Shown here: in pieces, positions 1,354 through 62,545 of the stretch
How positions within the stretch are numbered: the first letter of the stretch is position 1
Layout of the letters: the number at the start of each line of letters is the position of its first letter
Assembly (NCBI RefSeq): GCF_003627095.1
Contig: NZ_CP032627.1
Location: forward strand, 682,001 to 746,000
DNA: 64,000 nucleotides
Direction of reading: 5' to 3'
From: Lactococcus allomyrinae
GTDB lineage: Bacteria > Bacillota > Bacilli > Lactobacillales > Streptococcaceae
Made by a program: the position numbers and the translations under genes
The notes under the pieces: generated by a model
The model's input: only the letters and a program-made list of their open reading frames with translations
What the model was told of the DNA's origin: nothing
The model's database searches: none

Positions 1354-2059
1354 TGTGATTAAAATTTTGATTTGTGAGGATGATCCGTCAGTCAATAAAT
1401 TATTGTCTTTAACGATGGAAGTTGAAGAATATGATTATACGGCGGTTCAGACGGGTAAAGATGCTTTACGTGAGTTAGTAACGCACCGCCCTGATGTATT
1501 GATTTTGGATTTGGGACTGCCTGATATGGATGGTCGTGAAATCATTGAAAAAGTGCGCGGTTTCTCACAACTACCGATTATTGTGGTGAGTGCGCGCGGT
1601 GAAGAGACGGATAAAATCGGTGCGTTAGATGCGGGTGCAGATGACTATTTGACGAAACCTTTTAGCACTGATGAGTTGTTAGCGCGTCTGCGTGTGAGCT
1701 TACGACGAGCAAAATTTGCTGACAAGAATCTGTCAGCACTGACAGAAAAAACAGAATTTATCAACGGCTGGCTGCGAATAGATTTTTTGTCAAAATGTGT
1801 ATTTGTCAATGGTGAAGAGATCCACCTGACTCCAATTGAATACAAATTACTTTGTCTTTTGTCTGAAAATATTGATCGTGTTTTGACTTATCATTTCATT
1901 GTCAAGGAAATTTGGGGTTATTATGAGGAGGATTTTTCGGCTTTGCGTGTCTTCGCTAATACATTGCGCAAGAAAATTGAACTTAATCCAGCACATCCTA
2001 AAATTATCCAAACGCATATTGGCGTAGGTTATCGAATGGTTAAAATTGATGAAAAATGA
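1343..2059 (+). CDS. kdpE: KdpE response regulator
   Basis: OmpR/PhoB-type regulator of 238 residues: receiver domain with acidic pocket EDD (residues 11-13), phospho-acceptor Asp56 in LILDLGLPD, and the conserved KPF; then a winged-helix DNA-binding domain ending in GVGYRMVK. It is expected to switch on kdpFABC, which follows after a tandem terminator. The linker between the domains contains NLSALTEK, encoded by a copy of the dispersed TGTCAG palindrome (1730-1745), an insertion-like feature not usual for the family. The start overlaps kdpD and sits behind AGTGGAGG. Confidence 0.95.
   Translation: MENDVIKILICEDDPSVNKLLSLTMEVEEYDYTAVQTGKDALRELVTHRPDVLILDLGLPDMDGREIIEKVRGFSQLPIIVVSARGEETDKIGALDAGADDYLTKPFSTDELLARLRVSLRRAKFADKNLSALTEKTEFINGWLRIDFLSKCVFVNGEEIHLTPIEYKLLCLLSENIDRVLTYHFIVKEIWGYYEEDFSALRVFANTLRKKIELNPAHPKIIQTHIGVGYRMVKIDEK
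1730..1745. repeat. TGTCAG-CA-CTGACA palindrome in kdpE
   Basis: Perfect copy followed by GAAAA; read as LSALTEK in the linker of KdpE. An additional single CTGACA lies 11 bases upstream. Confidence 0.85.
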
Positions 2060-2192
2060 AGCCAAGGCGGAATGCGAAATTTGTCATTCCGACTAAGTGC
2101 TTTAGTGATGGAGCGAGGAGCATGAGAGGACGGAGATTGTGCTACTTTATCCGCAGAGATCGAGAATTAGTACGTACCTGCTTTGATAAGAT
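2060..2192. other. Non-coding stretch after kdpE with one hairpin
   Basis: No gene seen. It contains a 7-bp perfect inverted repeat CGGAATG/CATTCCG (2068-2091) and a purine-rich segment of higher GC than the surroundings. Function unknown. Confidence 0.5.
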
Positions 2193-2231
2193 AAAAACTT
2201 ACTGACAGATTTTTTGTCAGTAAGTTTTTTT
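2193..2231 (+). terminator. Intrinsic terminator of kdpDE
   Basis: 14-bp stem AAAACTTACTGACA pairing with TGTCAGTAAGTTTT around a 7-base loop, then a T run. The core of the stem is an inverted pair of the dispersed CTGACA motif. Confidence 0.9.
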
Positions 2232-2259
2232 AGCCCGTCAGTGCTGACAGGCTTTTTTA
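2232..2259 (+). terminator. Second, adjacent terminator built on the palindrome
   Basis: AGCC-GTCAG-tg-CTGAC-GGCT stem followed immediately by TTTTTT; starts directly after the first terminator. The stem centre is a one-mismatch copy of the dispersed palindrome. Confidence 0.8.
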
Positions 2260-2272
2260 TCTCAAAAATAAA

Positions 2273-2312
2273 ATCTTTATATCATCTTTATATGACTTGG
2301 CTAATCTTTATA
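2273..2312 (+). promoter_or_regulatory. Three ATCTTTATA direct repeats, probable KdpE operator
   Basis: Exact ATCTTTATA at 2273-2281, 2284-2292 and 2304-2312 (starts 11 and 20 bases apart). They lie just upstream of a -10-like TAGAAT (2334-2339), with no good -35. Phased T-rich direct repeats replacing a -35 are what is known of KdpE-activated promoters, so this is the likely activation site for kdpFABC (inference). Confidence 0.6.
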
Positions 2313-2465: not shown

Positions 2466-2479
2466 AAAGAGGTGTTGAA

Positions 2480-4324: not shown

Positions 4325-6393
4325 ATGATGGTTTCAAAAAATAAAAAATTATTAAATCGGGAAATACTGACAAGCTCTATCAAAGGAGCGTTTATCAAAC
4401 TCAACCCAATGTATATGATAAAAAATCCAGTGATGTTTGTGGTTGAAATTGGTTTTGCGATTACGTTGATTTTATCTATTTTTCCTGATTTGTTTGGCCC
4501 AGTGAGTCGTTCAACACAGATTTACAATAGTATCGTAGCCCTGATTTTGCTACTGACAATTCTCTTTGCAAATTTTGCTGAATCCGTTGCCGAAGGGCGA
4601 GGCAAAGCACAGGCTGAGAGTCTGAAAAAAACGCAAGAAAATATGAAAGCACGACTTGTTGGTACTGACAGAAATTCTGTCAGTACTGACGAGAAAATAA
4701 TTGATGCTTCTGAACTGAAAAAAGGCAATATTATTCTTGTCAAAGCAGGCGAGCTTATTGCAAATGATGGCGAAGTCATTGAAGGGATAGCTTCTGTTGA
4801 TGAGTCGGCCATTACGGGTGAATCAGCACCTGTCGTCAAAGAATCAGGAGGAGACTTTGCTTCTGTCACAGGAGGAACAACGGTTTCAAGTGACTGGCTT
4901 AAAATCGAAATTACATCAAATGCTGGTGAATCCTTTATTGATAAAATGATTGCTTTAGTCGAAGGAGCATCGCGCAAAAAGACCCCCAATGAAATTGCTT
5001 TGAACACGCTTCTTGTCAGCTTAACAATCATTTTCTTGATTGTCATTGTGACACTTTATCCTATTGCAAATTTTGTCCATGTGAAGCTTGCTGTACCTAC
5101 TCTAATTGCATTGACCGTTTGTTTGATTCCAACAACGATTGGTGGCTTGTTATCTGCCATCGGAATTGCTGGTATGGATCGTGTGACACGTTTCAATGTG
5201 ATTGCTATGTCAGGAAAAGCTGTTGAAGCGAGTGGAGATGTTGATACCATGATTTTGGATAAGACAGGAACAATTACTTTTGGTAATCGAATGGCATCTA
5301 AATTTATACCTGTTACTGGAGTAACGTTGTCAGCACTGACAGAGAGTGCGGTGCTGACATCATTACAGGATGAAACACCAGAAGGAAAATCCATTGTCAA
5401 ACTGGCTGAGGAGCAAGAAGATAAAGAATTTATGACACCTGCTGATATGACTTTTGTAGCATTTACAGCTCAAACTCGAATGAGTGGGGTGGATTTTCTG
5501 ACAGGACGGACGATTAGAAAAGGTGCGACAGATGCGATTACCGCTTTTGTCACAAAACGTGGGGAAGAATCCCCTCAGACTTGAAAATAATCACTGACGA
5601 AATTTCATCAGCAGGCGGCACACCATTGACCGTTGCCGAAAATGATAAAATTCTGGGTGTTATTTATCTAAAAGATACCATCAAACCAGGTCTAGTTGAA
5701 CGATTCGCGCGTTTGCGTAAAATGGGTATAAAAACAATTATGTGCACAGGCGATAATCCATTGACTGCCGCAACCATTGCCCAAGAAGCAGGTGTAGATA
5801 GCTTCATCGCCGAATGTAAACCAGAGGATAAAATAGAAGCTATCAAAGCAGAGCAAAATAAAGGAAAAGTCGTTGCGATGACAGGGGATGGGACAAATGA
5901 CGCGCCAGCATTGGCTCAAGCCGATGTAGGAATCGCTATGAATTCAGGAACGAGTGCTGCCAAAGAAGCAGCAAATATGGTTGACCTTGATAGCGATCCC
6001 ACCAAAATTCTTGATATTGTTGAAATCGGAAAACAATTACTGATTACACGCGGAGCATTGACCACTTTCTCCATTGCCAACGATATTGCCAAATATTTCG
6101 CCATCATTCCAGCGATGTTTATGCTAGCGATTCCAGAGATGCGCGTGCTCAATGTCATGGGACTTGCGACTCCGTCAAGTGCAATTTTATCGGCTCTGAT
6201 TTTTAATGCCATCATTATTCCTATTCTGATTCCACTTGCGATGAAAGGGGTCAAGTACAAACCCCAACGTTCCGAAAAAATGTTGACACACAATATGCTC
6301 ATTTATGGATTAGGCGGAGTAATCGCACCATTTATCGGCATCAAAATCATTGATTTTATTATTGCGCCACTTTTGCATATGATTGGACTTTAA
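4325..6393 (+). CDS. kdpB: KdpB, P-type ATPase subunit, interrupted by a -1 frameshift
   Basis: Catalytic subunit that hydrolyses ATP to drive K+ through KdpA. Frame 1 (4325-5584) holds the actuator TGES and the phosphorylation site Asp312 in [11 protein letters not shown]; frame 2 (5581-6393) holds [19 protein letters not shown] and the last membrane helices. The break falls at a G4 run (5561-5564): adding one G gives [12 protein letters not shown], the expected family sequence, and a 689-residue protein. No other damage is seen, so this is either a sequencing undercall or a very recent mutation. It carries two palindrome copies (4677-4690, 5327-5342). Confidence 0.93.
4664..4690. repeat. 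Motif cluster CTGACAG...CTGTCAG-TA-CTGAC in kdpB
   Basis: Inverted pair followed by a one-mismatch palindrome; read in another frame than most copies as [10 protein letters not shown]. The first 21 bases are identical to 46093-46113. Confidence 0.85.
5327..5342. repeat. TGTCAG-CA-CTGACA palindrome in kdpB
   Basis: Perfect copy read as LSALTE in the nucleotide-binding domain, with another CTGACA 13 bases on. Confidence 0.85.
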
Positions 6394-6403: not shown

Positions 6404-6419
6404 TTGTCAGTGCTGACAA
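6404..6419. repeat. TGTCAG-TG-CTGACA palindrome between kdpB and kdpC
   Basis: Perfect copy in the 38-base gap; it is followed by the kdpC ribosome site AAAAAGGAG. Confidence 0.85.
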
Positions 6420-12645: not shown

Positions 12646-15600
12646 GTGAAGAAAAAAGTAGGTACTTTTGTAGGAATGTTGATACTTCTTTTTACAGCAC
12701 TGTTTCCAGCCGCTAATGTATTTGCTGTAGGAACATTGAACGTAGATGTTAATGTCTCGAGTATGATGAGTTCTACATTATCTGGGCAAGATGCCCTATA
12801 TCGTATGGATTTCAAAGTAACAGGGATTAATACGACGTATAATAATGCTAAATTAACAGTCAATGTTCCAACAGGTTTTAGTTTAGATACTACCAATATG
12901 CCTTTAAATAGTATTGCGATTAATGGAGTAACACCTGTTTATGATACTACAACTAATACTTTAACCTATAATTTAGGGACGGTTAGTTCTGGATTAGATT
13001 ATTCTTTGGTCTTAAAAGTAGCAACGACTAATGGTTCTACTCCGAATGGAACGTCACTAACATTAGCTGCTAAGTTTACTGCAGATAATTTTGATGGAAA
13101 TGCAACCGACAATGCATCAGTGACAGTTACTGCATCTAATACAATCAGTACATCTAAAACAGCGGCTTCAATTACAGATTCAAGTGGTAAAACTATCTCA
13201 CGTCCTCCTGCAACCAATGACCTCATTAATTGGCAGATTAAAGTTGCAGATATTAATAAAACAACGGGTTTATTGTATCTTAAAGAAGGATCTAATATTG
13301 TAGTGGTAGACACTCTTCCAGATGGATTGACTTATGTTAGTGATGATTCTGGTGGTGTGTATAATGCTTCGAATAATACAGTTACTTGGACTTTTGGAGC
13401 ACCAACCATTGCTCAACAACAAGCAGCAACAGGAGATTTATATAATAAGACAATCAATGTAAAAACGATGATATCTAGCACAACTAATTTCTCAAAACTG
13501 ACTAATAGTGTGAAAGCAACTGCGACAGACCTGAATGGAACCCCCGTAACAAATACTTCATCAGCATCGGTTAGTATGGGATTAAGCGATCCGTCTGCTC
13601 CAGAAGTACCTTCAGGAAATATTTGGGCGTTGCAACATGGTGCAAATGCAGCTGCTGGTTTTTATCAAACACAGTGGACTCAAGGATCAAATCCAGATCC
13701 AACGCTTTATAATGATCAAACTTGGGCGACAGCTTTTAATATTCGAGATAATGCGGCTAATAGTCAAACTAAAGATATGACTTCATATGTGGCTTACTAT
13801 TCAATCGACCCACATTTGAACTTAAGTTCTTTGTATGTTCCAAGTTATGTCTTAGCTTACGATGCAGCTAACAACCCGAGCACGGCTATGGTTGGTGCGC
13901 AGCATCCTAATATGGATATTTATATTACAGTAAATGGGACAGAATACAAAGCAGTCACTAATGCGACAGATTTAACAACTTACCAGATGAGTGCAATCTT
14001 TACTCAATTGGGATTACCTCAAGATAGCCATGTTTCTAATGTGAGATATAACTACAATTATGCTCCCGCAGGAATGTATGCGAGTAATATGGCATTAAAT
14101 TTCACGATACAAAGTGGTTATGTGGGGAAAGTCACAAATACTGTGGTTTATAAAATATCGGGTTATAACGCTGCAGGTCAACCAGTAACCATTGATACTA
14201 CATCTAATTCTACAAACCCTAGTAATGCTGTTGGAGCAAGAACAGCAGAAATAGTTGCTCGTCCAGTGCCGAGTCCTCCAGTGGCAACTTCCAAGATTAG
14301 TTTCGACACAAATAATAATGGGGTGGTAAATCTAGGGGCTAATCGTGTGACAGGTAATTTTGGAAATATCAACACATCAACTTCAAATATGAACGGCCCA
14401 TTTACAGCAGTGGTTATCTTACCTAAGGGTGTAACAATTAACACGGCAAATCCTAGCTATCAGCTAAAGAGTGCGATTGGTAACTCATGGGATAGCGCAA
14501 CGACAGATGGAAATAATGCTAATGGTACTGTTAAAATACTTTCTACAAATTATAACAGTACAGGGCAGGAACAAATTTTAATTAGTTGGACAAGTGATAG
14601 TATTTTACAACCAGGCCAAGCTCTATGGTACGGCTTTAATGTAAACATAGACAGTACAGCCTCCTCCCCTATCCAACTCTATACTTTTGGGTCATCAAGT
14701 GATACAAACCTTACAGTTCCTACTGCTCCAAGCAAAATAACGGATTCGTTCTTGTTGATAGATAACGGTTCAGATGATATTGCAAAAACAGCAGATATCA
14801 ATAATAATGGTAGCAGTACAGATAAGTTGGTTAAATCAGGCAATCAATATACGGTATTGAGTAACTATGGTTTAAATGTTCAAAAGCAAGTACAGGGGAA
14901 TTTGGATTCAGGATATTCTACCTTTGGTCATGTTTCACCTGGTGGGATAATTAATTATAAAATAGCATTAACTACACGTAATCCAAATCAGACACTTACG
15001 AACTTTGTCTTTGTAGATGTACTTCCATCTGTGGGAGATTTAGGGATTACGGACAATGCTGCTCGAGGTTCTCAATTTACTCCTATTTTGACGGGACCTA
15101 TTAGTTTACCTAGTTCTTGGAATAGTCATGTTACAGTTTATTATTCTACAGCTAAGAATCCATCTCGTTCAGATTTAACGGCTAATGTGGTCTATCCTGA
15201 TACAACGACTCAATTGACAGATCCGAGTGGAGTTCAGACAGCTAATTGGCAAACTGCTAGTCAAGTAACGGATTGGTCTCAAATTCATAGCTATATGATT
15301 AAACAAAACACTGGGGATACGTGGAGTAATATTTCTAATTTGATTTATACTTTCACGATGCAAGCTCCAACAGTGGCTCAACTTATCTCAGCAGGAGAAA
15401 CAAATGCTCTTGCAACTAATGTGTCAGGAGACCCTACAAGCAATCCAACAAATCGGGCAGCTTGGAATTCCTTTGCTTATCAAGAAAATACTTCCCAAGT
15501 TATTGAACCAATCAAAGTTGGGGTTGCAATGGAAAACTATACAGGTGATGTATACTTGCTTAAATTTGAAACAGGTACAACTGTGGATACAGATAGTGAT

Positions 15601-16029
15601 GGAAAACCAGATATTGACTCTAATTATCATTTGACTAAGGGAAATCCTTTGGCTGGTGCAGTCTTTGATTTGGTTGATGCGAGCGGAAAAACAGTAGGAA
15701 CTGCAACAACAGACCAATACGGTCAAATTCATTTTAGTAATGTTTGGTATGGAGATTATACTCTTGTAGAAACAAAAGCTCCTGCAGGATATGAACTTTT
15801 GAAAAAACCAATTCCTGTTACGGTTTCATCATCAAATAATGGTGTTACAGTAGCATTTGCAGGTGATAGTCCACAAACCATTCTTCCTAGCACAGGAGGT
15901 GATGGTTCAAATCAAGTGCCATTAATCGTAGCAAGTAGTTTAGGACTTGTAGGACTGATTACGGTAGGTGCAGGATACCTCATCCAAAACAAGAGAAAGA
16001 AAGGAGAGGAAAATGATGTTATTGAATAA
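12646..16029 (+). CDS. Large pilus adhesin (probable tip subunit), LPSTG
   Basis: 1127 residues: GTG start behind AAAGGAG, signal peptide ending VFA, several beta-sandwich domains of the isopeptide/DUF11-type (for example KTAASITDSSGKTISRPPATNDLINWQI), a calcium-loop-like DTDSDGKPDIDS (981-992), a C-terminal CnaB domain (LAGAVFDL..YTLVETKAPAGYELL), LPSTG at 1080 and a membrane helix. The size, the single CnaB at the end and the position after the backbone pilin suggest the tip adhesin. It ends 17 bases after the next start, an overlap that couples translation. Confidence 0.85.
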   Translation: MKKKVGTFVGMLILLFTALFPAANVFAVGTLNVDVNVSSMMSSTLSGQDALYRMDFKVTGINTTYNNAKLTVNVPTGFSLDTTNMPLNSIAINGVTPVYDTTTNTLTYNLGTVSSGLDYSLVLKVATTNGSTPNGTSLTLAAKFTADNFDGNATDNASVTVTASNTISTSKTAASITDSSGKTISRPPATNDLINWQIKVADINKTTGLLYLKEGSNIVVVDTLPDGLTYVSDDSGGVYNASNNTVTWTFGAPTIAQQQAATGDLYNKTINVKTMISSTTNFSKLTNSVKATATDLNGTPVTNTSSASVSMGLSDPSAPEVPSGNIWALQHGANAAAGFYQTQWTQGSNPDPTLYNDQTWATAFNIRDNAANSQTKDMTSYVAYYSIDPHLNLSSLYVPSYVLAYDAANNPSTAMVGAQHPNMDIYITVNGTEYKAVTNATDLTTYQMSAIFTQLGLPQDSHVSNVRYNYNYAPAGMYASNMALNFTIQSGYVGKVTNTVVYKISGYNAAGQPVTIDTTSNSTNPSNAVGARTAEIVARPVPSPPVATSKISFDTNNNGVVNLGANRVTGNFGNINTSTSNMNGPFTAVVILPKGVTINTANPSYQLKSAIGNSWDSATTDGNNANGTVKILSTNYNSTGQEQILISWTSDSILQPGQALWYGFNVNIDSTASSPIQLYTFGSSSDTNLTVPTAPSKITDSFLLIDNGSDDIAKTADINNNGSSTDKLVKSGNQYTVLSNYGLNVQKQVQGNLDSGYSTFGHVSPGGIINYKIALTTRNPNQTLTNFVFVDVLPSVGDLGITDNAARGSQFTPILTGPISLPSSWNSHVTVYYSTAKNPSRSDLTANVVYPDTTTQLTDPSGVQTANWQTASQVTDWSQIHSYMIKQNTGDTWSNISNLIYTFTMQAPTVAQLISAGETNALATNVSGDPTSNPTNRAAWNSFAYQENTSQVIEPIKVGVAMENYTGDVYLLKFETGTTVDTDSDGKPDIDSNYHLTKGNPLAGAVFDLVDASGKTVGTATTDQYGQIHFSNVWYGDYTLVETKAPAGYELLKKPIPVTVSSSNNGVTVAFAGDSPQTILPSTGGDGSNQVPLIVASSLGLVGLITVGAGYLIQNKRKKGEENDVIE

Positions 16030-16708
16030 AATAAAAATTTCAACTGCTTTTAAAATATTCCTATTCATTTCGTTTCTCTTTTTCAGTTTTGTCTCTAAAA
16101 ACTTGACCTTTGCAGACACATCAATTCCTGATACGTCATTGACAATTGTGAAATATAAACTTTCTGAATCACAGCTTCAAAATTCTAATTTGCCGAAACA
16201 GCCAACAGGTTCGATTTTGGGAGCTAATGAAGCTAAAGATTCATCGGGAAATGATTTAACAATAATGTCAGGGGTTCAGTATCAGATTGATGAAGTCATC
16301 CCAAGTAATGATGAGAATGTACCGTTTGAAATTGCTCCTAACAATCATTCTCAAGTGATTACTACAGATGATGAGGGACAAGCAACGATTACGCTTCCAG
16401 CAGGAATCTATAGAGTAACAGAACTTCAAGGAGCAGGGGTTCAGAATCCTGCAGCTCCTGTTATCGTTCAACTTCCAATGACTCTACAAAATGGTCAGTT
16501 TTTGAATCACGTTTATCTCTATCCAAAATCTAGTGTCATATCTGCTCAAAAAGAAACAACACCTTTAAGAAATAAAGAGATAAGTAACATTCCGCAAACT
16601 TCTGGAAGTGAAAGTTCTTTATATCCTATTTATATTGCTTTAGTCATAGTGATTTGTGCAGGATTATATGGTGTATTTATAATCAAATCTGAACATTACA
16701 CTAAATAA
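16013..16708 (+). CDS. Minor pilin (probable basal subunit), IPQTSG sorting motif
   Basis: 232 residues: signal peptide (LFISFLFFSFV..TFA), SLTIVKYKLSE similar to the major pilin, one pilin domain with GIYRVTELQG (short E-box), NIPQTSGSESS as sorting motif, helix and short tail EHYTK. The start was placed at 16013 (or 16016) because AAAGGAG lies just upstream; a longer frame from 15968 has no ribosome site. The small size and variant sorting motif fit a base pilin that is handed to the wall. Overlaps the previous gene by 17 bases. Confidence 0.8.
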   Translation: MMLLNKIKISTAFKIFLFISFLFFSFVSKNLTFADTSIPDTSLTIVKYKLSESQLQNSNLPKQPTGSILGANEAKDSSGNDLTIMSGVQYQIDEVIPSNDENVPFEIAPNNHSQVITTDDEGQATITLPAGIYRVTELQGAGVQNPAAPVIVQLPMTLQNGQFLNHVYLYPKSSVISAQKETTPLRNKEISNIPQTSGSESSLYPIYIALVIVICAGLYGVFIIKSEHYTK

Positions 16709-16836
16709 TGATAAAAAGGAGGAAGAGTAGGACAAGTGTCATGATTAATTTTAAAAATTTGCGTGCTCTGATGATAATACTCTTACTATTTCTTTCTCCT
16801 TTTTATCTATCTTTTTTAACAAGTTTTTATTGTTGA
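16708..16836 (+). CDS. Small membrane peptide (42 aa) in the pilus operon
   Basis: ATG overlaps the stop of the minor pilin as TAATG, so it could be re-initiated. It reads a basic start (MIKRRKSRTS), one hydrophobic helix and a terminal Cys. An internal ATG at 16741 would give 31 residues and has AAGGAGG rather far (about 18 bases) upstream. No family recognised. It may be real, or a leader peptide for the hairpin downstream. Confidence 0.4.
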   Translation: MIKRRKSRTSVMINFKNLRALMIILLLFLSPFYLSFLTSFYC

Positions 16837-16872
16837 ATTCTATATTAACGGTTATCACAGGAAGAAATTCTT

Positions 16873-16925
16873 CTTGTGGTAATGAATGAGATAATATTTG
16901 TAATTATTTTATTCATTACCACAAG
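16873..16925 (+). promoter_or_regulatory. Long hairpin immediately upstream of the sortase
   Basis: 15-bp perfect arms CTTGTGGTAATGAAT and ATTCATTACCACAAG, extendable inward by about eight further pairs including G-T pairs. The right arm ends where the sortase ribosome site (AGAAAGAGGGG) begins. There is no T run after it, so it is not a standard terminator. Possible roles: RNase processing site, mRNA stabiliser or translation control. Confidence 0.65.
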
Positions 16926-16938
16926 AAAGAGGGGAACG

Positions 16939-20514: not shown

Positions 20515-20530
20515 TTGTCAGCGCTGACAA
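20515..20530. repeat. TGTCAG-CG-CTGACA palindrome
   Basis: Perfect intergenic copy between rex and the DUF4097 gene, followed by a lone TTGTCAG. Confidence 0.85.
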
Positions 20531-20566
20531 TGTGTTGTCAGAAGAATAAATAATATAAATGAAGTA

Positions 20567-20600
20567 TAAAAAAGCTGTCAGCATACTGACAACTTTTTCT
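20567..20600. terminator. Terminator of the PadR operon, built on the palindrome
   Basis: TGTCAG-CATA-CTGACA core (20575-20590) extended by A and T runs on both sides. It lies directly downstream of the minus-strand DUF4097 gene. Confidence 0.75.
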
Positions 20601-20608
20601 GTAATTAA

Positions 20609-25419: not shown

Positions 25420-25435
25420 CTGTCAGTACTGACAA
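25420..25435. repeat. TGTCAG-TA-CTGACA palindrome in the pyr leader
   Basis: Perfect copy just 3' of the PyrR hairpin. Confidence 0.85.
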
Positions 25436-25500: not shown

Positions 25501-25520
25501 GCTGTCAGTATACTGACAGA
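25501..25520. repeat. TGTCAG-TATA-CTGACA palindrome in the pyr leader
   Basis: Variant with a four-base centre, followed by AAAACTTTT, 20 bases before the attenuator terminator. Confidence 0.8.
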
Positions 25521-26490: not shown

Positions 26491-26518
26491 CTGACAGTAT
26501 TTCTGTCAGTACTGACAG
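26491..26518. repeat. Motif cluster CTGACAG...CTGTCAG-TA-CTGACAG
   Basis: Inverted pair plus perfect palindrome sharing the middle arm, in the pyrE-pyrC gap 22 bases before the pyrC start. Confidence 0.85.
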
Positions 26519-33771: not shown

Positions 33772-34176
33772 ATGAAAATCACAATAAGAAATCAGATAAA
33801 AATTGATAAGCACGAAGAAATAATCAAAGAAACTTACAATGGCGAACTAAAAAGAATTGCAGGAAAAACAGTATTAATTTACAAGAATGAAGCAGAAGAA
33901 AAGGTACTTCTCAAATTTGATGAACAAGAACTTACAATGACAAGATTTACTGACAAGCCTGTAACTATGCGTTTTCATGAAGATTTTCCTAGTGAAATGA
34001 CTTACGAAGGCTTGGGAAGTCTGTCAGTGCTGACAGAAAATTTGTCAGTTAATATTCAAGAAAAATTAGTAAAAATCAACTATCAACTTGCACAAAATGA
34101 CTTAAAAATCGGAGATTATAGACTTCACATCACCTGGTTAGATGAAGAAGAACAAGAGAAAGAAGGAGTAAAATAA
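33772..34176 (+). CDS. DUF1934 family beta-barrel protein
   Basis: 134 residues, small lipocalin-like family common in Firmicutes: IRNQIKIDKHEEIIKETYNGEL, VLLKFDEQELTMTRF, MTYEGLGSLSV and DYRLHITW. Function unknown. LSVLTENLSV comes from a palindrome plus a half-motif. The next gene begins two bases after its stop. Confidence 0.82.
   Translation: MKITIRNQIKIDKHEEIIKETYNGELKRIAGKTVLIYKNEAEEKVLLKFDEQELTMTRFTDKPVTMRFHEDFPSEMTYEGLGSLSVLTENLSVNIQEKLVKINYQLAQNDLKIGDYRLHITWLDEEEQEKEGVK
34021..34036. repeat. TGTCAG-TG-CTGACA palindrome in the DUF1934 gene
   Basis: Perfect copy followed by GAAAATTTGTCAG; read as LSVLTENLS. Confidence 0.85.
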
Positions 34177-43752: not shown

Positions 43753-43802
43753 GCACTTTGTCAGAAATGACAGAAATAAAAAATGAATAAAAAGAGGACA
43801 AA

Positions 43803-50902: not shown

Positions 50903-52170
50903 AAAACACCACCTCCACGGTTTGATTTTTTGATTTCCTGAACGGCTTTAAGCATGGCTCTAGTTCGTCCTTCGTGAAAAAAGTAGACTAATCCATCAGG
51001 GCGTGTGCTTGAGCGTCCAACTCGTCCTGCTATTTGGATAAGGGCTGATTTTGTAAAATTAGTGTGATGAGCGAAGAGGACAAATACGTCTATTTCTGGG
51101 AAAGTAACTCCTCGCTCTAAAATACTTGTGGTAACAAGGATAGAGTAGTTTCCTGAACGAAAGTCTTCAACTATATTTAAGCGCTGCTTGCTTTTGGAGG
51201 ATACAAATGCAATTTTTTCTTCTGGAAATTTTTGTTTTAACTTTTTTGTAAATGATTCTCCAAATCTAATCTCAGGTACAAAAATAAGAAGTGGAAAACG
51301 GCTTACTCTCTGCTTTTTTAAACATTGGATAAATTTTGTATGCCATAAAAGTTTTGGAACTGTGAGTTTACCTCCATGAAAACGTTGGGTTAATTCAAGT
51401 TGATGGAGAGCTCCGATTTTGATTTGATGCTCTAAGAAGTCGGTGGTTGTGGCAGTCAGGTAAACCAAACAAGAATCAGGTTTTCTTGCATTTTCTACAG
51501 CGAAATAAAGCATTGGATTATCTGCAAAAGGAAAGGCATCAACTTCGTCAACAATCAATAAATCAAAAGCATCACGAAATCGTAAGAGTTGATGCGTGGT
51601 GGCAATCACAAGCGGTGCACGAAAATAAGGTTGACTTTCGCTATGCAAGAGAGATATTTTACAAGAAAAATCACGAGAAAATCGTTTATGTAGCTCGATA
51701 CAGACATCAATTCGAGGACTGACAACTGCGACACTTTTTCCATCTCTTAAATATTGATTGATGATTGGGTAGACCATCTCTGTCTTTCCTGCACCTGTGA
51801 CAGCTCTGACAAGAATCTGTGAGCGCTGATGGCAATCTGTGATAAGGCTGTCAGCGATTTTTTGCTGTTCTGATGTTAGTTTCCCTGACCAAAGAAGATA
51901 AGGATGTGCAATAAAATTTTGCTGAGGAAAATGATAGAGCGATTCATCAGATTGTACTCTCCCTAAGTTAATACAAGTTGGACAATAAAAACATCCCAGA
52001 GGAAGTTGAACCATAACTTTTTTGTGAACGCTGCCACATCGCAAACATTTAATGCTGTCAGTGCTGACAGCAGTCATGGTAGGAGATTGGTTAAAATCAG
52101 TCTTGCTGACAGAATGTCTGATACGATTAAAATCGGCTGTTAGTAATAATCGTCCATATAAATCTTTCAT
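50899..52170 (-). CDS. comFA: ComFA, DEAD-type helicase/translocase of competence
   Basis: 423 residues. Zinc motif CLRCGSV..CFYCPTC, Walker A VTGAGKTEM, DEVD box LLIVDEVD, and C-terminal motif VI QIAGRVGRSS. It pulls single-stranded DNA into the cell. AVSTDSIKCL is encoded by a palindrome copy. Whether the organism is naturally competent is not shown by this window; the pair is intact. Confidence 0.95.
   Translation of the reverse strand: MKDLYGRLLLTADFNRIRHSVSKTDFNQSPTMTAVSTDSIKCLRCGSVHKKVMVQLPLGCFYCPTCINLGRVQSDESLYHFPQQNFIAHPYLLWSGKLTSEQQKIADSLITDCHQRSQILVRAVTGAGKTEMVYPIINQYLRDGKSVAVVSPRIDVCIELHKRFSRDFSCKISLLHSESQPYFRAPLVIATTHQLLRFRDAFDLLIVDEVDAFPFADNPMLYFAVENARKPDSCLVYLTATTTDFLEHQIKIGALHQLELTQRFHGGKLTVPKLLWHTKFIQCLKKQRVSRFPLLIFVPEIRFGESFTKKLKQKFPEEKIAFVSSKSKQRLNIVEDFRSGNYSILVTTSILERGVTFPEIDVFVLFAHHTNFTKSALIQIAGRVGRSSTRPDGLVYFFHEGRTRAMLKAVQEIKKSNRGGGVL
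52055..52070. repeat. TGTCAG-TG-CTGACA palindrome in comFA
   Basis: Perfect copy; read as VSTDS on the comFA strand. A further CTGACAG lies 34 bases away. Confidence 0.85.
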
Positions 52171-54123: not shown

Positions 54124-54759
54124 ATGACTATCACGATAAAAACCGACTTTACAAACGAAGAAGAAATCAAAAAATCACGTTTCATCTGTCAGCTCGCGCG
54201 TGTTAAATCAGAGGAAGAAGCGCAAAATTTTATTGCACAGGTCAAAAAAGCCAATCCTCGCGCCAATCATAACTGCTGGGTCTATACGATTGGCGAGCGG
54301 CAGGAAATCCAGCGTATGAGTGATGATGGAGAGCCGTCAGGCACTGCGGGCGTTCCCATGCTTGAAATCCTAAAAAAGAAGGAAATTACCAATGTTTGTG
54401 CCGTTGTCACGCGCTATTTTGGCGGTATCAAGCTGGGCGCAGGCGGACTCATTCGTGCGTATGCAGGTGCTGTTAACCACGCGGTTGAAGCTGTTGGACT
54501 GGTAAAGTTGGTTGAACAGCAAGAAATGATATTGTGCCTTGATTACAGTCTTTATGACAGCTTACAGCGTTTTTTGACACAAGAAAATCTCGTCATCGCA
54601 CAGAGTGAATTTTTGACAGAAATCAAAGTGAGCGCATACATTGACGAAAACCGTGCTGACAGCTTTTTGTCAGCACTGACAGAGCATTTTAATAGTAAAA
54701 TCACCGCTGACAAAGGGAAAATCAGACTGACAGAAGTCGATTTTGCACAAATTAAGTAG
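54124..54759 (+). CDS. yigZ: YigZ/IMPACT family protein
   Basis: 211 residues: IKKSRFICQLARV, NHNCWVYTIG, SDDGEPSGTAGVPML and TRYFGGIKLGAGGLIRAYAGAV are IMPACT family motifs; the C-terminal half is the DUF1949 fold. Role unknown (ribosome or nucleic acid related). FLSALTEH is encoded by a palindrome. Ribosome site GAGGAG. Confidence 0.93.
   Translation: MTITIKTDFTNEEEIKKSRFICQLARVKSEEEAQNFIAQVKKANPRANHNCWVYTIGERQEIQRMSDDGEPSGTAGVPMLEILKKKEITNVCAVVTRYFGGIKLGAGGLIRAYAGAVNHAVEAVGLVKLVEQQEMILCLDYSLYDSLQRFLTQENLVIAQSEFLTEIKVSAYIDENRADSFLSALTEHFNSKITADKGKIRLTEVDFAQIK
54667..54682. repeat. TGTCAG-CA-CTGACA palindrome in yigZ
   Basis: Perfect copy with CTGACAG 13 bases upstream; read as FLSALTE. 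Confidence 0.85.
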
Positions 54760-56509: not shown

Positions 56510-59500
56510 ATGACAAAGTATAGTGTCGGTTTGGACATCGGTATAGCAAGCTGCGGCTGGAGCATTATTGATATTGAGAAAAAAGAGATTATAGATTTAG
56601 GCAGTCGGATTTTTCCATCTGGAAATGCTGCTGGAAATCAAGACAGACGGAGTTTTCGTGGGACGCGGCGACTCATCAGACGGCGAAAAAATCGTTTGTC
56701 AGATTTGACGAAGTTTTTGGCTGAAAATGGCTTTGCTGTCAGTAATGACAAAAATCAAAATCCTTATGCCCTTCGTTCCAAAGGGCTGGCAGAGCAACTA
56801 TCAAAGGAAGAATTGGCAACTGCACTTTATCATATTGTCAATCGGCGTGGGATTTCCTATGATTTGGGCGATTTGGAAGACGACGGGACGAGCGGTGTTA
56901 GTGACTACAAATCTTCGATTAATATCAACCGCCAGCTTTTGCGTGAAAAGACGATTGGGCAAATTCAGCTTGAACGGCTGAATGAATTCGGTCAAGTTCG
57001 TGGTCAGGTCAAAGCAGATGATGAAACAACTTTGCTCAATGTTTTTCCGTCAGCTGCCTATGCGGACGAAGCCAAGCAGATTTTGGAAAAGCAGGCTGAA
57101 TATTATCCTGAAATCACGGACGAATTTATCGCGAAAATCAATGAACTGATTACTCGCAAGCGCGAATATTTTGTCGGTCCAGGCAATGAAAAATCACGTA
57201 CAGATTACGGGATTTACAAAACGGACGGTAGGACGCTGGATAATCTTTTTGACGAACTCATCGGAACGGACAAAATCAACGGCGAAAAACGGGCATCTGC
57301 GTCAAGTTTGACCGCTCAGATTTATAATTTGCTCAATGATTTGAATAACCTGACCGTGCCAAACACCGAAGATGGAAAATTGACGACTGAAACGAAAAAA
57401 GAAATTCTGTCAGCTGCGAAGCGGGCTGAGGGTATTTTTGGGAAAGTTCAGATTTGTAAGCTAATTGGAGTAAAATTTGATGAACTTAAAACCAAAAAAG
57501 GTGGAGAAATTGAATTTAAGCATACACTTTTTGCTTACAGAAAATTCCGCAAAGCGCTTGCAGAAAGCAATATTGAAGCAAATGATTTGTCCACCGAATT
57601 TTTCGATAAAATCGCAGATATTCTCACGTTAAATACTGAAAAAGCTGAAATCCGCAAGCAGTTGGATAAAGCCGATTTTGCCATTTCTGACGAGGTAAAA
57701 GAACTCATTGTCAAAGAAAATAAAAATCTCCTCGTTGACGGACGTGCGACTTGGCACAGTTTTTCTTACAAAACCTTGAATTTGCTCATTCCTGAGCTGC
57801 TCAATACCTCTGATGAACAGATGACGATTTTGACAGGTCTGGGCTTGATGAAGCCTGACAATGAGAAATATCAAGGCTTGAAGAATATTCCAGCAGCTCA
57901 AATCACAGAAGAAATTTACAATCCTGTCGTCGCAAAATCAACGCGCGAAGCCATTAATGTTTTCAATGCGATTGCAAAACGTGTCGGCGCAGAAAATATT
58001 GCGCACGTTGTCATTGAATTGCCGCGCGAAGACAATGAAGACGATGTTAAAAAGCAAAAAATAAAGTTTCAGAAAGCACAAGAAGCCGAGAAAAATGCAG
58101 CTGACGAACTCGTCAAACAACAAATGACAATTCCTGACAGCAGCTTACTTGCTCAATATCGCAAGTTCAAAGGTCTATCACAAAAAGTGCGTTATTGGTA
58201 TCAGCAAGAAACTTTTTGTCCATACTGCGGCGAGAAAATCAAGGTGATTCAGCTCATCAACAATAATGAAAGTTTTGAAATTGACCACATCATCCCGATT
58301 TCAGTCAGTTTTGATGACTCGCAAAATAATAAAGTGCTTGTCCATAGTCAGTGCAATCAAGCGAAGGAAAAGCAAACGCCGCTTGGCTGGATTAACAACG
58401 GCGGCGGATTTGGGCAAACGAAAGCGGAATACATTGCCAGAGTTAAGGCAAATAAAAATTTCAACAAAAATAAAGTTGACAATCTGCTCAACGACGCGGA
58501 TTTGAACGACATTATCACGCGTCGTAGTTTTATTCAGCGAAATCTTAATGACACGCGCTATGCCTCACGCGTGGTGCTGGACGAGTTTTACAGCTTTTTC
58601 AAGTCAAACCATCTGCCCACAAAAGTCAAGGTCGTCCGTGGCAAATGGACTTCACAAATGCGTAAAAAATGGAATAGCGCAGGTGGACTTGCCAAAACGC
58701 GCGACACGCATCATCATCACGCGATTGATGCCAGCATTATCGCCAGTTTTCCATTGCTGAAAGCCTTTGACAAAGCGGTCAAATTGATTGATATTGACAA
58801 GGAAACGGGCGAAATTTTGCAAGATAAAGCAGCGGTCAAAAAAGCGCGTGAAGCCGAATTATTGGCGCAATGGGCGATTCCGAATGAAAAAGAATTTGAA
58901 AAATTAGACAGCGAGATTTTTGATTTTCCGCTTTTCAAGCAAGTTGAATTGGCAAATGACATTGATGACCCAGAAAATCCAGTCAAATTCAGCCACAAAG
59001 TCGATAAAAAAGCCAATCGCGCCGTTGCCAATCAGACGATTTACGGCACGCGCATGAAAGAAACAGAAGTTGTAAAACGTGGAAAAACGGAAATTGTGCA
59101 AGATGAATATATCTTTGGCACGATAAAAAACATCTATAACGTAGATGATTTTGCGAAATTCAAAAAGTTGTACGATGAGGCGCTCAAAAAAGAGGATGTC
59201 AAGTTTTTGATGCAAGAAAAAGACCCAAAAACTTGGGAAAAATTGCTTAAAATTCTGAAAAACACGCCTGATTTTGAAGAAAAAACGCAGACAGATGGAA
59301 AAGTCAAAGTCATCCCTGTTTCTCCATTTGAGCTTTATCGCCGTGAAAATGGTTTTATTACTAAATATGCCAAGCATAATAATGGGCCAAAAGTGGTGAG
59401 CTTGAAATATTACGACTCAAAAATCGGCAGTCATATTGATATTACGCCTGAGAACGCTAGAAATAAAGTCGTGTTGCAAAGCTTGAAGCCTTGGCGGACG

Positions 59501-59974
59501 GACGTTTACTACAATCCTGACACGCAGCAATATGAACTTCTCGGTCTCAAATATGCAGATTTGAAATTCACAAAAGGAGTTTACGGAATCACGGAGGAAG
59601 CCTATGAAAAGCTGAAACATGGGATTGAAGCGGACGGCACGATTTTGTGGAAACCGATTGGGCGGAACAGCGAGTTTCGGTTTAGTTTGTATCGAAATGA
59701 TCGTGTGAAGATTGTGGACGATAAAGGGGAAGAAATTGAGTTGTTGTTTGGGTCTCGTGCTGGAAACAATGAGGGTTATGTTGAGATGAAACCTATCCAC
59801 AAAGCGAGATTTGAAGGTGCAGAGGAGATTGCTTTTTATGGAAAAACATCTTCTGGTAGATTTCTAAAGCCATTAGCTAAAAAGGGCTATAAACTCTACA
59901 AAGTCAACACGGGAATTCTAGGCACACCCTACTACACCGAAAAAGAATCAGATCAACCAAAATTAAATTTATAA
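56510..59974 (+). CDS. cas9: Cas9, type II-A crRNA-guided nuclease
   Basis: 1154 residues, near the size of S. thermophilus CRISPR1 Cas9. RuvC-I Asp9 (SVGLDIGIAS), arginine-rich bridge helix (RRSFRGTRRLIRRRKNRL, about 47-64), RuvC-II Glu503 (VVIELPRED), HNH with Asp592 and His593 (FEIDHIIP) and zinc-like CPYC, RuvC-III His737 and Asp740 (HHHHAIDAS), then the PAM-interacting end. All catalytic residues are present, so it should be active. Ribosome site GGAGAG. It uses the tracrRNA encoded just downstream. Confidence 0.98.
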   Translation: MTKYSVGLDIGIASCGWSIIDIEKKEIIDLGSRIFPSGNAAGNQDRRSFRGTRRLIRRRKNRLSDLTKFLAENGFAVSNDKNQNPYALRSKGLAEQLSKEELATALYHIVNRRGISYDLGDLEDDGTSGVSDYKSSININRQLLREKTIGQIQLERLNEFGQVRGQVKADDETTLLNVFPSAAYADEAKQILEKQAEYYPEITDEFIAKINELITRKREYFVGPGNEKSRTDYGIYKTDGRTLDNLFDELIGTDKINGEKRASASSLTAQIYNLLNDLNNLTVPNTEDGKLTTETKKEILSAAKRAEGIFGKVQICKLIGVKFDELKTKKGGEIEFKHTLFAYRKFRKALAESNIEANDLSTEFFDKIADILTLNTEKAEIRKQLDKADFAISDEVKELIVKENKNLLVDGRATWHSFSYKTLNLLIPELLNTSDEQMTILTGLGLMKPDNEKYQGLKNIPAAQITEEIYNPVVAKSTREAINVFNAIAKRVGAENIAHVVIELPREDNEDDVKKQKIKFQKAQEAEKNAADELVKQQMTIPDSSLLAQYRKFKGLSQKVRYWYQQETFCPYCGEKIKVIQLINNNESFEIDHIIPISVSFDDSQNNKVLVHSQCNQAKEKQTPLGWINNGGGFGQTKAEYIARVKANKNFNKNKVDNLLNDADLNDIITRRSFIQRNLNDTRYASRVVLDEFYSFFKSNHLPTKVKVVRGKWTSQMRKKWNSAGGLAKTRDTHHHHAIDASIIASFPLLKAFDKAVKLIDIDKETGEILQDKAAVKKAREAELLAQWAIPNEKEFEKLDSEIFDFPLFKQVELANDIDDPENPVKFSHKVDKKANRAVANQTIYGTRMKETEVVKRGKTEIVQDEYIFGTIKNIYNVDDFAKFKKLYDEALKKEDVKFLMQEKDPKTWEKLLKILKNTPDFEEKTQTDGKVKVIPVSPFELYRRENGFITKYAKHNNGPKVVSLKYYDSKIGSHIDITPENARNKVVLQSLKPWRTDVYYNPDTQQYELLGLKYADLKFTKGVYGITEEAYEKLKHGIEADGTILWKPIGRNSEFRFSLYRNDRVKIVDDKGEEIELLFGSRAGNNEGYVEMKPIHKARFEGAEEIAFYGKTSSGRFLKPLAKKGYKLYKVNTGILGTPYYTEKESDQPKLNL

Positions 59975-59999
59975 AATTAAGAAAAGGCTTACGTGACGC

Positions 60000-60028
60000 T
60001 TGCAGGAACTCAAAATTTTTGCTAAAAT
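60000..60028 (+). promoter_or_regulatory. Promoter of tracrRNA
   Basis: TTGCAG, 17 bases, TAAAAT; start of transcription expected near 60035. Confidence 0.75.
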
Positions 60029-60034
60029 AAAGGA

Positions 60035-60160
60035 GTAGTTGACGAACTACTGCGCTCGACGGAGCGTATTCAATCTTTTTATTGATAGGAAAATGATTGA
60101 GAATCTACAAGGATAAGGCTTTATGCCGAAATCATTAACTCGCCTTTGGGCGAGTTTTTT
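60035..60160 (+). ncRNA. tracrRNA of the type II-A system
   Basis: Anti-repeat at 60076-60110 (ATTGATAGGAAAATG, TTGAGA and CTACAA match the reverse complement of the array repeat, with one bulge). The nexus hairpin follows (AAGGCTTTATGCC), with GAAATCA, and a terminator hairpin ACTCGCC/GGCGAGT plus T6 (60138-60160). The layout is close to S. thermophilus CRISPR1 tracrRNA. Upstream of the anti-repeat are two small hairpins, GTAGTT-GACG-AACTAC and CGCTC-GACG-GAGCG, that would form part of a longer primary transcript. Transcribed in the same direction as cas9 and the array. Confidence 0.93.
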
Positions 60161-60181
60161 GTTTTTCTTTAGAAAGGAAAA

Positions 60182-60301
60182 TTGAGTTCGACCTCTTTGA
60201 CGGCTGGAAAAAAGATAAATTGGAACCTGACACTTGCGACAGAACTACAAATTCCTATTTTTCAAGCCATCAGAGCAATCGGTCTCACATCTTATTTATG
60301 A
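60182..60301 (+). CDS. Possible 39-aa peptide coupled to cas1
   Basis: TTG start just after AAAGGA (short spacing) and a stop that overlaps the cas1 ATG as ATGA. Reads a helical LATELQIPIFQAIRAIGLTSYL end. Without it cas1 has no ribosome site of its own, so coupled translation would explain cas1 expression. No known family; the coding claim rests on position and overlap only. Confidence 0.35.
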   Translation: MSSTSLTAGKKINWNLTLATELQIPIFQAIRAIGLTSYL

Positions 60302-61212
60302 CTTGGAGAAATGTGATGATTAAGGACGGGGACTATCTTCGTCTAAAATTAGATAACTTAGAAATTGAGAAAGGTGGACAAAAATTTAGTATTCCACTCT
60401 CAGATATTGCGACAATCACTCTAGAAGGCAATATTTTGACGCTAACGACTAAGTTGCTTGCAAAGTTAGCACAACATAATATTGCCGTGATTGTTTGTGA
60501 CAATAAATATGTGCCTTGTGGTATTTTCATGGGCTTTGGGCAGTATCATCGGACGGCCAAGCGCAATCTGGAGCAGGTTGCTTGGAGTGAAAAGCTACGA
60601 AATGAAGTCTGGACAGAAATTATCCGACAAAAGCTGAGCAATCAACGAGCGGTACTCATTGCGCATGATGCAGATGTAGAGCGGATTGACAAGCTTCAGG
60701 AGTTGATTGAACACATCCAACTGGCGGATGCGACGAACCGTGAGGGACATGCGGCAAAGGTTTATTTTAACAGTCTGTACGGCATGAAATTCACGCGGGA
60801 GCAGGATTGTCTGGAAAATGGCGCGATGAATTACGGCTACACCATTATCAGAGCTTATATGGCGCGGCTGGTGACGAGTTTAGGACTCATTCCAACTTTA
60901 GGCGTTTTTCATCGGAATGAATTTAATTCGTTTAACTTGGTGGATGATTTGATGGAACCTTTTCGTCCCTTGATGGATTGGTATATTTTGGAGAAAATTT
61001 TACCGAATTACCCGAAATATCTGACTTGGGAAGCGCGCTGTAAGTTGATTGATTTCTTGAATCAGCCCTATTTTTACAGAGGGAAGAAAACAACGATTGA
61101 TTTGGTAATGTTGGATTATGTCAATTCTTTTATTAAAGTAATGAAAAATGAAAATCTTTCAGAGTTGACAGAAATTACTTTAGGAGGGATTGCGAGGTGT
61201 ATGAGAAATTGA
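60298..61212 (+). CDS. cas1: Cas1 integrase
   Basis: 304 residues from ATG at 60298, where the MTWR start matches Cas1 of type II-A; a frame opening at 60220 is longer but not family-like. Conserved LKLDNLEIEKGGQKFSIPLSDIATITLEG, catalytic Glu in NREGHAAKVYFNSLYG, His in GVFHRNEFNSFNLVDDLMEPFRP. With Cas2 it inserts new spacers. No good ribosome site, so its translation may depend on the ATGA overlap upstream. Overlaps cas2 by 16 bases. Confidence 0.97.
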   Translation: MTWRNVMIKDGDYLRLKLDNLEIEKGGQKFSIPLSDIATITLEGNILTLTTKLLAKLAQHNIAVIVCDNKYVPCGIFMGFGQYHRTAKRNLEQVAWSEKLRNEVWTEIIRQKLSNQRAVLIAHDADVERIDKLQELIEHIQLADATNREGHAAKVYFNSLYGMKFTREQDCLENGAMNYGYTIIRAYMARLVTSLGLIPTLGVFHRNEFNSFNLVDDLMEPFRPLMDWYILEKILPNYPKYLTWEARCKLIDFLNQPYFYRGKKTTIDLVMLDYVNSFIKVMKNENLSELTEITLGGIARCMRN

Positions 61213-61517
61213 GATTGATGTGTTTTTTTGATTTGCCAATGGAAACGAAACAGGAACAGAAATATTATCGCGTTTTCAGAAAAAAACTGATAGAACTTGG
61301 CTTTGTGATGGTACAAGAATCAGTTTATGTCAGAACATTACCCAATCGGAGTCAACTCACAAAATATGAGGAGCAGCTCAAAAGGGTAACTCCTTACAAT
61401 GGCTTGGTTGAGCTGATGTATGTGACGGAGAAACAGTTTAATGACCGACGATTTTTGACGGGTGAAAAAGCACCGCAAGAAGTCGCTGTCGGTAATCACA
61501 AAATGGTAATTATATGA
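61197..61517 (+). CDS. cas2: Cas2
   Basis: 106 residues: RLMCFFDLPMETKQEQKYYRVFRKKLIELGFVMVQESVYVR is the Cas2 fold with the Asp in FFDLP. Structural partner of Cas1 in spacer insertion. Overlaps cas1 by 16 and csn2 by four bases, so the three are translated as a unit. Confidence 0.96.
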   Translation: MYEKLRLMCFFDLPMETKQEQKYYRVFRKKLIELGFVMVQESVYVRTLPNRSQLTKYEEQLKRVTPYNGLVELMYVTEKQFNDRRFLTGEKAPQEVAVGNHKMVII

Positions 61518-62545
61518 GAATAGAAATAGAAAATAATAAGTTTATTGAATTTGACGAAATGCCGCGTTTGTTTTTTTATGGTCAAAATCAAAAAGTTGCG
61601 CAAGAACTTGTTCGCAGCCTGAAAAGATTTGCTAATAAAAAAACTTTGAATGACTTGGAAGAATTGGTTTACGGTGAAAATGGGATTGAAATTTACCGAG
61701 AGAAAGAACGGCTCAACGAAAAAAATATCGACATCCATTTCTTACAGGATAATGCCTCTCTTTACCGAGAAGTCAGCTTTGACAGAAAGAGTTTGATGAC
61801 TGATTTCCTGTCAGCTCTGACGGAAAATATGGCGATCACTACGGAACTTGAAGAAATCAAAAACCACTTATTGAAGATTGAGCTGCTCTTTAATGGACAG
61901 CTTCGTCAAGTTTCGAATAATGTTTCGTCAAATTTGACAGATTTGTCATTTGAAGATTTATTGAAAAACCATCTGTTTTTGTCCTATGCGGCTGATAATC
62001 ATGACTTCCCTTTAGAAATGATGGATGCCAATGAATTTGTGGATGAATATTTGGCACTGCTCGGTCAGAAATTGGAGCATCAGCCTAAAGAAACATGGAT
62101 TATTTTGATTAATCCAGCAAGTTTTTTAATGACAGAAAAGATACAAGACTTGCTAGAGGGTCTGTCAGTGCTGACAGAAAAAACGGAACTTGTCCATACG
62201 TTTGTCATTAGCCAGCAAACGCTTGAACTAGTGTATTTTCCAAATGATGTGCCGAGTACGATTGTTTTGACAGATGATGTTTATCAAATGCCAGATTTTG
62301 ACACTTTTAGAAAAAGTATTGAAAATCATTATCCGATAAGTTTGAAAATGTCAGATGAAGCGCTCTGTCAAAATTTTTATGAAATCGTCTCAAGCATTGG
62401 TAGCAAGGCAAAAGTCGCTGGAAAATCTTATCAAAATATGATATTATTAAAGGTGATAAATGAGATTTTAGGTATTGAAAGTGCATCATTTTCTATCAAT
62501 TTTGATGAACTTTCTGAGCTAGAACGCACTTATCTTAGTTCTTGA
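61514..62545 (+). CDS. csn2: Csn2, long form, type II-A adaptation protein
   Basis: 343 residues, the long type seen with S. thermophilus CRISPR1 (short forms are about 220). Csn2 rings bind linear DNA ends during spacer acquisition. Two copies of the dispersed palindrome are inside the gene: 61808-61823 (FLSALTEN) and 62162-62177 (LSVLTEKTE). Start ATGA overlaps the cas2 stop. Confidence 0.9.
   Translation: MRIEIENNKFIEFDEMPRLFFYGQNQKVAQELVRSLKRFANKKTLNDLEELVYGENGIEIYREKERLNEKNIDIHFLQDNASLYREVSFDRKSLMTDFLSALTENMAITTELEEIKNHLLKIELLFNGQLRQVSNNVSSNLTDLSFEDLLKNHLFLSYAADNHDFPLEMMDANEFVDEYLALLGQKLEHQPKETWIILINPASFLMTEKIQDLLEGLSVLTEKTELVHTFVISQQTLELVYFPNDVPSTIVLTDDVYQMPDFDTFRKSIENHYPISLKMSDEALCQNFYEIVSSIGSKAKVAGKSYQNMILLKVINEILGIESASFSINFDELSELERTYLSS
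61808..61823. repeat. TGTCAG-CT-CTGACG palindrome copy in csn2
   Basis: Near-match to the consensus; read as LSALTE. Confidence 0.75.
62162..62177. repeat. TGTCAG-TG-CTGACA palindrome in csn2
   Basis: Perfect copy followed by GAAAAAAC; read as LSVLTEK. Confidence 0.85.

Follow-up and report, generated by a model that had tools for sequence, protein, structure and literature searches.

The window analysed here, a stretch of 64,000 nucleotides from the chromosome of Lactococcus allomyrinae (NZ_CP032627.1, positions 682,001 to 746,000), raises the question of why a single palindrome, TGTCAG-NN-CTGACA, recurs throughout its genes and spacers. All eleven exact copies listed in the original prediction are present, while 100 dinucleotide-preserving shuffles of the window gave a mean of 0.00 copies and a largest value of 0, and the two central bases are pyrimidine-purine (YR) in 11 of 11, as had been claimed. 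With up to two mismatches allowed, the window contains 27 matches, compared with a mean of 2.2 expected. The two predicted copies with a 4-base centre and the five with one mismatch also exist, with small corrections to their positions (starts at 20576 and 25503, each one base from the values first given, and at 2236 rather than 2237), and three further one-mismatch copies are found at 43759, 51798 and 56737. GAA is frequent beside the motif, but the GAAAA said usually to adjoin it is less so. A count over the whole genome (G000, genus Lactococcus, 2.758 Mb), which had been proposed as a check, returned 349 copies against 0 for the reversed word used as control, with a YR centre in 326 of the 349.

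The unit is the half-site CTGACA, whose best form is YRCTGACAGAA, and the palindrome is one arrangement of this commoner word. There are 104 exact half-sites in the window, and RCTGACAGA, counted on both strands, occurs 1335 times in the genome compared with 8 occurrences of its reversed control. Two samples of this genome were read, a first of 304 kb and a second of 400 kb (together 704 kb; about 31% of the genome was read, as were smaller parts of its relatives, and genome-wide statements are pattern counts). In the first sample, the most over-represented 8-mer is TCTGTCAG/CTGACAGA (173 observed versus 30 expected), and 448 CTGACA are found, yet just 43 palindromes with a gap of 2 and 23 with a gap of 4. 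The centres of the latter are mainly YRYR, and the palindromes look like two YRCTGACA units that either overlap (gap 2) or abut (gap 4). Half-sites are also clustered: in the 704 kb, 743 of 1086 have a neighbour within 75 bp. Clustered half-sites amount to 1.06 per kb and those with no neighbour within 75 bp to 0.49 per kb, which is near background (permuted words: median 0.34, 90th percentile 0.66 per kb). A separate signal, apparent from the over-represented words CGCGTG and GCGCGT, is that of the lactococcal Chi, GCGCGTG.

Neighbouring half-sites share one face of the helix, whether they are in direct, head-to-head or tail-to-tail order and whether they lie within or between genes. Start-to-start distances peak at 8, 10, 18-20, 28-31, 38-41 and 59-61 bp for head-to-head pairs, at 12-13, 20-23 and 31-33 bp for tail-to-tail pairs and at 20-21, 30-31, 40-42 and 51 bp for direct pairs, and the peaks recur in the second sample, where direct pairs at 15-75 bp give R=0.58 at 10.5 bp (n=154; null mean 0.08). 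A single-offset same-face model with a period of 10.28 bp covers all three orientation classes. Its parameters, fitted to the first sample, were held fixed for all other samples and genomes and gave mean cosines at 15-75 bp of 0.53 in the second sample (n=301), 0.61 in the sister species G005 (n=182), 0.40 in G011 (n=74), 0.46 in G001 (n=50), 0.56 in G016 (n=33), 0.42 in G045 (n=43) and 0.46 in G014 (n=15), sites being reused across pairs for both the R values and the mean cosines. When groups closer than 15 bp are collapsed and each site is used once, the independent pairs within a quarter turn of the same face, about half being expected, number 65 of 78 in the first (fitted) sample, 91 of 111 in the second, 21 of 27 in G011, 25 of 31 in G001, 19 of 24 in G016, 17 of 21 in G045 and 9 of 11 in G014 (simulated p 0.01). 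The results for G000 and G005 share ancestry and are not independent; the phasing is confirmed in the second sample and in five non-sister genomes, one of which (G045) belongs to another genus and one of which (G014) contributes few pairs. It persists at 76-140 bp in both samples of the genome, in G005 and in G045, and at 141-200 bp it is weaker in G000 and G005 and still 0.43 in G045.

Protein helices or heptads were rejected as the cause, because direct pairs are phased equally strongly between genes (R 0.57, n=65) and within them (0.59, n=176); the gene maps behind these figures, and behind all counts by frame, location, T-run and intergenic conservation, are long open reading frame approximations. 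Reading frame does have some influence on pair spacing, since 87 of the 176 in-gene direct pairs are separated by a multiple of 3, compared with one third by chance. The palindrome itself is read in more than one frame, as originally stated (of the 27 in-gene copies of the 304-kb sample, 21 use frame 1 and 6 use frame 2); in frame 0, TGA would be read in frame. The direct-pair phasing score of CTGACA is the highest among 318 hexamers (82.7; median 0.85), and the remaining hexamers with strong phasing were judged on inspection to be fragments of the repeat of a CRISPR (clustered regularly interspaced short palindromic repeats) array or words overlapping CTGACA, so that the array was also rejected as the source. 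Five of seven permuted control words are unphased, and the two that are phased, ACTGAC and TCAGCA, overlap the extended motif. T-tracts, too, are phased to CTGACA in both samples (TTTTTT, n=339 versus 262 expected, R 0.23), an observation that suggests curved DNA in the arrays.

Conservation places the constraint on DNA rather than on protein, as the original prediction proposed. Across 266.6 kb aligned to the sister species at 93.3% identity, CTGACA is preserved at 343 of 393 sites and has the highest rank among the 978 hexamers present at least 100 times, the pooled value for hexamers of the same composition being 0.664. Preservation is strongest between genes (102/111 versus 881/1514 for permuted words), where phasing is as marked as within them, and is also high inside genes (239/280 versus 10499/15812). 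Among gap-2 palindromes, 39 of 43 could be aligned with their flanks (the 4 unaligned copies are excluded), and 34 have identical arms, 5 carry substitutions and none is a clean insertion; 14 of the 15 gap-4 copies aligned (of 23, with 8 unaligned and excluded) are identical. Over the 39 gap-2 copies, changes affect 6 of 468 arm positions, 91 of 1326 flank positions and 11 of 78 centre positions, and despite these centre changes the centre remains YR in 38. Half-sites with a palindrome partner are preserved in 110 of 118 cases, those whose nearest neighbour within 75 bp is in phase in 112 of 122, and those without a neighbour within 200 bp in 63 of 80.

Most half-sites are located in genes, and their density between genes falls from 4.24 per kb in convergent to 2.98 in tandem and 1.55 in divergent spacers. 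Density peaks, at 4.0 per kb, within the 40 bases that follow stop codons. The two palindrome forms differ, gap-2 copies lying in genes in 63 of 91 cases and gap-4 copies between genes in 43 of 49 (both samples). Sites that define macrodomains or guide segregation, of the MatP, Noc and SlmA type, have an origin- or terminus-biased distribution; no such bias was seen for the half-site in 44 sampled blocks of the genome. Of the nucleoid or segregation site originally suggested, it is the nucleoid-type binding site that is preferred. The GC skew changes sign near 786 kb, close to the window, at what is probably the terminus, and parB is found at 2.23 Mb. Half-site density drops to 0.50 per kb in a block at 178-298 kb that resembles an integrated conjugative element in its coupling-protein-like, VirB4-like AAA and partition genes, and to 0.46 per kb in 28 kb sampled from contigs 2 and 3, which are taken to be plasmids. 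The few pairs in the 178-298 kb block likewise tend towards the same face (n=8 and 12). The conjugative-element-like block also carries a helicase gene with Hint and LAGLIDADG domains, of intein or homing type (L126:8671-12084).

The orientation-independent same-face rule, the clustered excess, the conservation at the DNA level and the avoidance of promoters together argue that several half-sites are contacted from one side by a protein. On this sequence evidence, the CTGACA sites may be the binding sites of a putative chromosome-wide protein that contacts at least two same-face half-sites in part of Lactococcus, a reading on which we are evenly divided. Each half-site would be contacted by one DNA-binding domain, and the palindrome would represent the tightest packing of two half-sites, by overlap at the YR centre (gap 2) or by abutment with a YRYR centre (gap 4); sites would be retained where promoters are left undisturbed, and many of the between-gene gap-4 copies could double as intrinsic-terminator-like structures. 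Placement on one helical face, as for the cooperative sites of nucleoid-associated proteins, is seen here as sequence phasing, and such a reader, presumably multimeric, might organise the nucleoid or mark its own chromosome.

Several observations weigh against this proposal. The binding protein was not found: none of the Lactococcus genomes searched has Lrp, ParB does not follow the number of motifs, leaving ParB/Noc candidates unsupported, and of ComEC, ComGC, ComEA, Lrp and ParB, considered as motif-linked proteins, none tracks motif number. Half-sites with an off-phase nearest neighbour are preserved in 22 of 26 cases, a small sample, nearly equal to the in-phase figure. Isolated half-sites are conserved somewhat above the pooled control (0.787 versus 0.664) and keep weak flank preferences, stronger in G001 and G016, so that single sites may matter. 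Beyond 75 bp, G011 and G014 show no phasing, and G001 and G016 show it weakly. Finally, two motif-poor 20-kb blocks (602-622 and 1940-1960 kb) are filled with ordinary genes, including those for phosphoketolase, xylosidase, ezrA and alcohol dehydrogenase, and poverty in the motif is therefore not solely a matter of foreign DNA.

RCTGACAGA (reversed control in brackets) is found 1430 (12) times in G005, 1335 (8) in G000, 944 (17) in G001, 888 (11) in G045, 816 (20) in G011, 746 (23) in G016, 357 (20) in G014, 308 (13) in G010, 126 (16) in G004, 118 (32) in G040, 99 (31) in G027, 92 (18) in G007, 82 (18) in G012 and 69 (23) in G008; the remaining 104 of the 118 genomes each contain between 2 and 144 matches, and a modest excess is seen in some of them, as in G077 (144 versus 72), G089 (108 versus 35) and G110 (35 versus 6). 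Among 295 genomes of the family, most of which are taken to be of one genus, Streptococcus, ACTGACAGAA is clearly enriched only in Lactococcus members and in G045, of genus g2 (21+15 versus 0+1). G001 and G016 are rich in half-sites yet poor in YR palindromes (14 and 13, respectively), so the motif has dialects that differ among species; single extended motifs are kept in both. Among viral contigs, a 20-base palindrome is present in one. In G011, a near-identical 60-bp tandem repeat holding three palindromes lies between genes (L147:5250-5383).

Within the window the sites are arranged as follows (no strand is assigned to the sites).

1731-1744: gap-2 palindrome, exact match, in a KdpE-like response-regulator gene (1343-2059); half-site 1719 lies tail-to-tail, 12 bp upstream
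2236-2249: one-mismatch palindrome, from the mismatch search
4678-4691: one-mismatch palindrome; half-site 4665 lies tail-to-tail at 13 bp
5328-5341: gap-2 palindrome, exact match, in the first piece of a split kdpB
6405-6418: gap-2 palindrome, exact match, in the kdpB-kdpC spacer
20516-20642: array of six half-sites lying between two genes and at their edge (gap-2 palindrome 20516, half-site 20536, gap-4 palindrome 20576, half-site 20637)
25421-25434: gap-2 palindrome, exact match, between an ABC-F gene and pyrE
25503-25518: gap-4 palindrome in the same ABC-F gene/pyrE intergenic region
26491-26517: half-site 26491 and gap-2 palindrome 26504, immediately upstream of pyrC
27033-27046: one-mismatch palindrome in pyrC
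29874-29899: two direct-repeat half-sites 20 bp apart, the first being part of a one-mismatch palindrome
30489-30512: half-site 30489 and gap-2 palindrome 30499 in a Nif3-like gene
34022-34048: gap-2 palindrome and half-site 34043 in a DUF1934 gene
52056-52069: gap-2 palindrome in a minus-strand helicase gene (Pfam Helicase_C, ResIII, DEAD), probably comFA
54656-54732: five half-sites that start inside a yigZ gene and reach nearly to its end (54656, gap-2 palindrome 54668, and 54707 and 54727 in direct order, 20 bp apart)
61809-61822: one-mismatch palindrome
62163-62176: gap-2 palindrome, exact match, in csn2

The split kdpB occupies two overlapping frames (4325-5584 and 5581-6393) that match the two parts of the KdpB profile, and reflects either a frameshift or a sequencing error. 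A type II CRISPR locus (56510-64000) encodes a compact Cas9 (1154 aa), Cas1 and a long Csn2, followed by an array with 21 repeats from 62615 to the end of the window and 21 more in the next stretch (L117). Two further regions (12646-18711 and 38508-42119) hold a SpaA-like large surface protein beside a class C sortase, in a pilus-like cluster, and an LPXTG-anchored protein with a weak legume-lectin-type match.

The main rival, which we consider rather unlikely, is that the word is a signal for DNA uptake in natural transformation, like the DNA uptake sequences (DUS) and uptake signal sequences (USS) but in a Gram-positive lineage. The machinery would prefer DNA bearing the word, which would accumulate by drive and selection, and several same-face contacts would make attachment to the pilus, or to ComEA held in the membrane, stronger. 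The strong over-representation throughout the chromosome, genes included, is that of DUS/USS genomes, which are also matched by the hundreds to thousands of copies, the inverted copies at terminators, the species dialects and the scarcity in the conjugative-element-like block (PMC12616744). Among the genomes searched, ComEA was found in 26 of 26 (25 above the cut-off), ComGC in 25 of 26 and ComEC in 23 of 24, and the comG genes of G005 are open frames. However, one motif suffices for DUS/USS (PMC12616744), yet lone half-sites are near background here, and nothing known of uptake predicts helical phasing. In Streptococcus pneumoniae, DNA binding relies on minor pilins attributed to the pilus tip (PMC12040237). 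In some motif-rich genomes, moreover, the competence genes appear to be disrupted: in G016, comGD is divided between two frames and comEC is fragmented across two contigs, comGB of G000 (C1:1909900-1911400, L161) is in two frames where G005 has a single open frame, and in G011 an unrelated frame stands before comGC, close to the end of a contig, each of which could reflect sequencing or assembly error; the motif-poor G003 likewise has comEC in two frames. No ComEA residue distinguishes motif-rich from motif-poor species, as judged by eye over 24 of 25 rows. Uptake, one of the functions first suggested, is thus weakened.

It is improbable that the sites are the expanded regulon of one transcription factor. 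This is hinted at by TGTCAGT direct repeats of variable spacing upstream of six genes in L. lactis MG1363, and by CTGACAGWTCTRTCA upstream of the PyrR regulon of that strain (PMC3547956), and in the window both pyrE and pyrC have palindrome copies upstream. Against it, spacers between divergent genes have the lowest density of half-sites, the majority of which lie in genes.

Quite improbable as the general explanation are RNA or DNA hairpins, chiefly transcription terminators, spread by selection for a good stem. The peak past stop codons and the intergenic location of gap-4 copies are consistent with such hairpins, as are a T-run of at least 4 within 20 bases on a side at 31 of 43 between-gene gap-4 copies and arms extended by at least 3 bases at 19 of the 43 (copies within 40-60 bases of a stretch end are excluded). 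A T-run alone is weak evidence of a terminator, however, because 24 of 62 in-gene gap-2 copies have one too, and phasing is as strong in direct-repeat pairs, from which no hairpin can form, as in inverted pairs. The hairpin is insufficient for direct repeats and for in-gene copies, the larger part of the gap-2 class, and survives only as an additional role for some copies. A mobile mini-palindrome of the MITE (miniature inverted-repeat transposable element) or REP (repetitive extragenic palindromic) kind, also raised originally, would account for numerous dispersed copies, but is hardly credible given that they have no common flank beyond TTC/GAA, differ between sister species by substitutions with no clean insertion among the 39 aligned gap-2 copies, and are few in the conjugative-element-like block. 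The original interpretation is, as a whole, partly supported.

We tentatively propose a lineage-specific code that extends across coding and non-coding DNA, in which same-face arrays of up to about 200 bp (in G000) would be read by a putative multimeric protein that organises or marks its own DNA, or would serve as a Gram-positive uptake signal through repeated contacts. We know of no bacterium whose chromosome as a whole, genes included, is under selection for the helical phase of a specific word, and no precedent was found in the open-licence literature and listings searched. If true, the proposal would imply a constraint on protein-coding sequence that arises at the DNA level, and it predicts a new DNA-binding protein close to a well-studied dairy genus.

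Compared with known systems, the TGTCAGT repeats and the motif llmg_m043 of L. lactis MG1363 promoters also contain this half-site, at variable spacing and within the same genus (PMC3547956); they concern a handful of promoters, whereas here there are thousands of sites, mostly in genes and fewest in divergent promoter regions, and the promoter motif is perhaps an ancestral or residual use of the half-site. The DUS/USS of Neisseriaceae and Pasteurellaceae resemble the present sites in having hundreds to thousands of copies, often as terminator inverted repeats, and dialects (PMC12616744), but a single motif is enough there, whereas here the signal lies in helically phased pairs and arrays, and the genus is Gram-positive, with no known receptor. 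HIP1 of cyanobacteria (highly iterated palindrome) is likewise a palindrome over-represented genome-wide and varying among species and is tied to methyltransferases for internal sequences (PMC4390886); here, the half-site is the unit, the palindrome is dispensable and phasing is the rule, as illustrated by the phased direct repeats and by the ratio of RCTGACAGA to YR palindromes in G001 (944/14) and G016 (746/13). The nearest described mode is that of SeqA bound to pairs of GATC in Escherichia coli (PMC5145175), from which the present system differs in its half-site, CTGACA instead of GATC, and in a phasing that spans more turns and can be read in the genome sequence itself.

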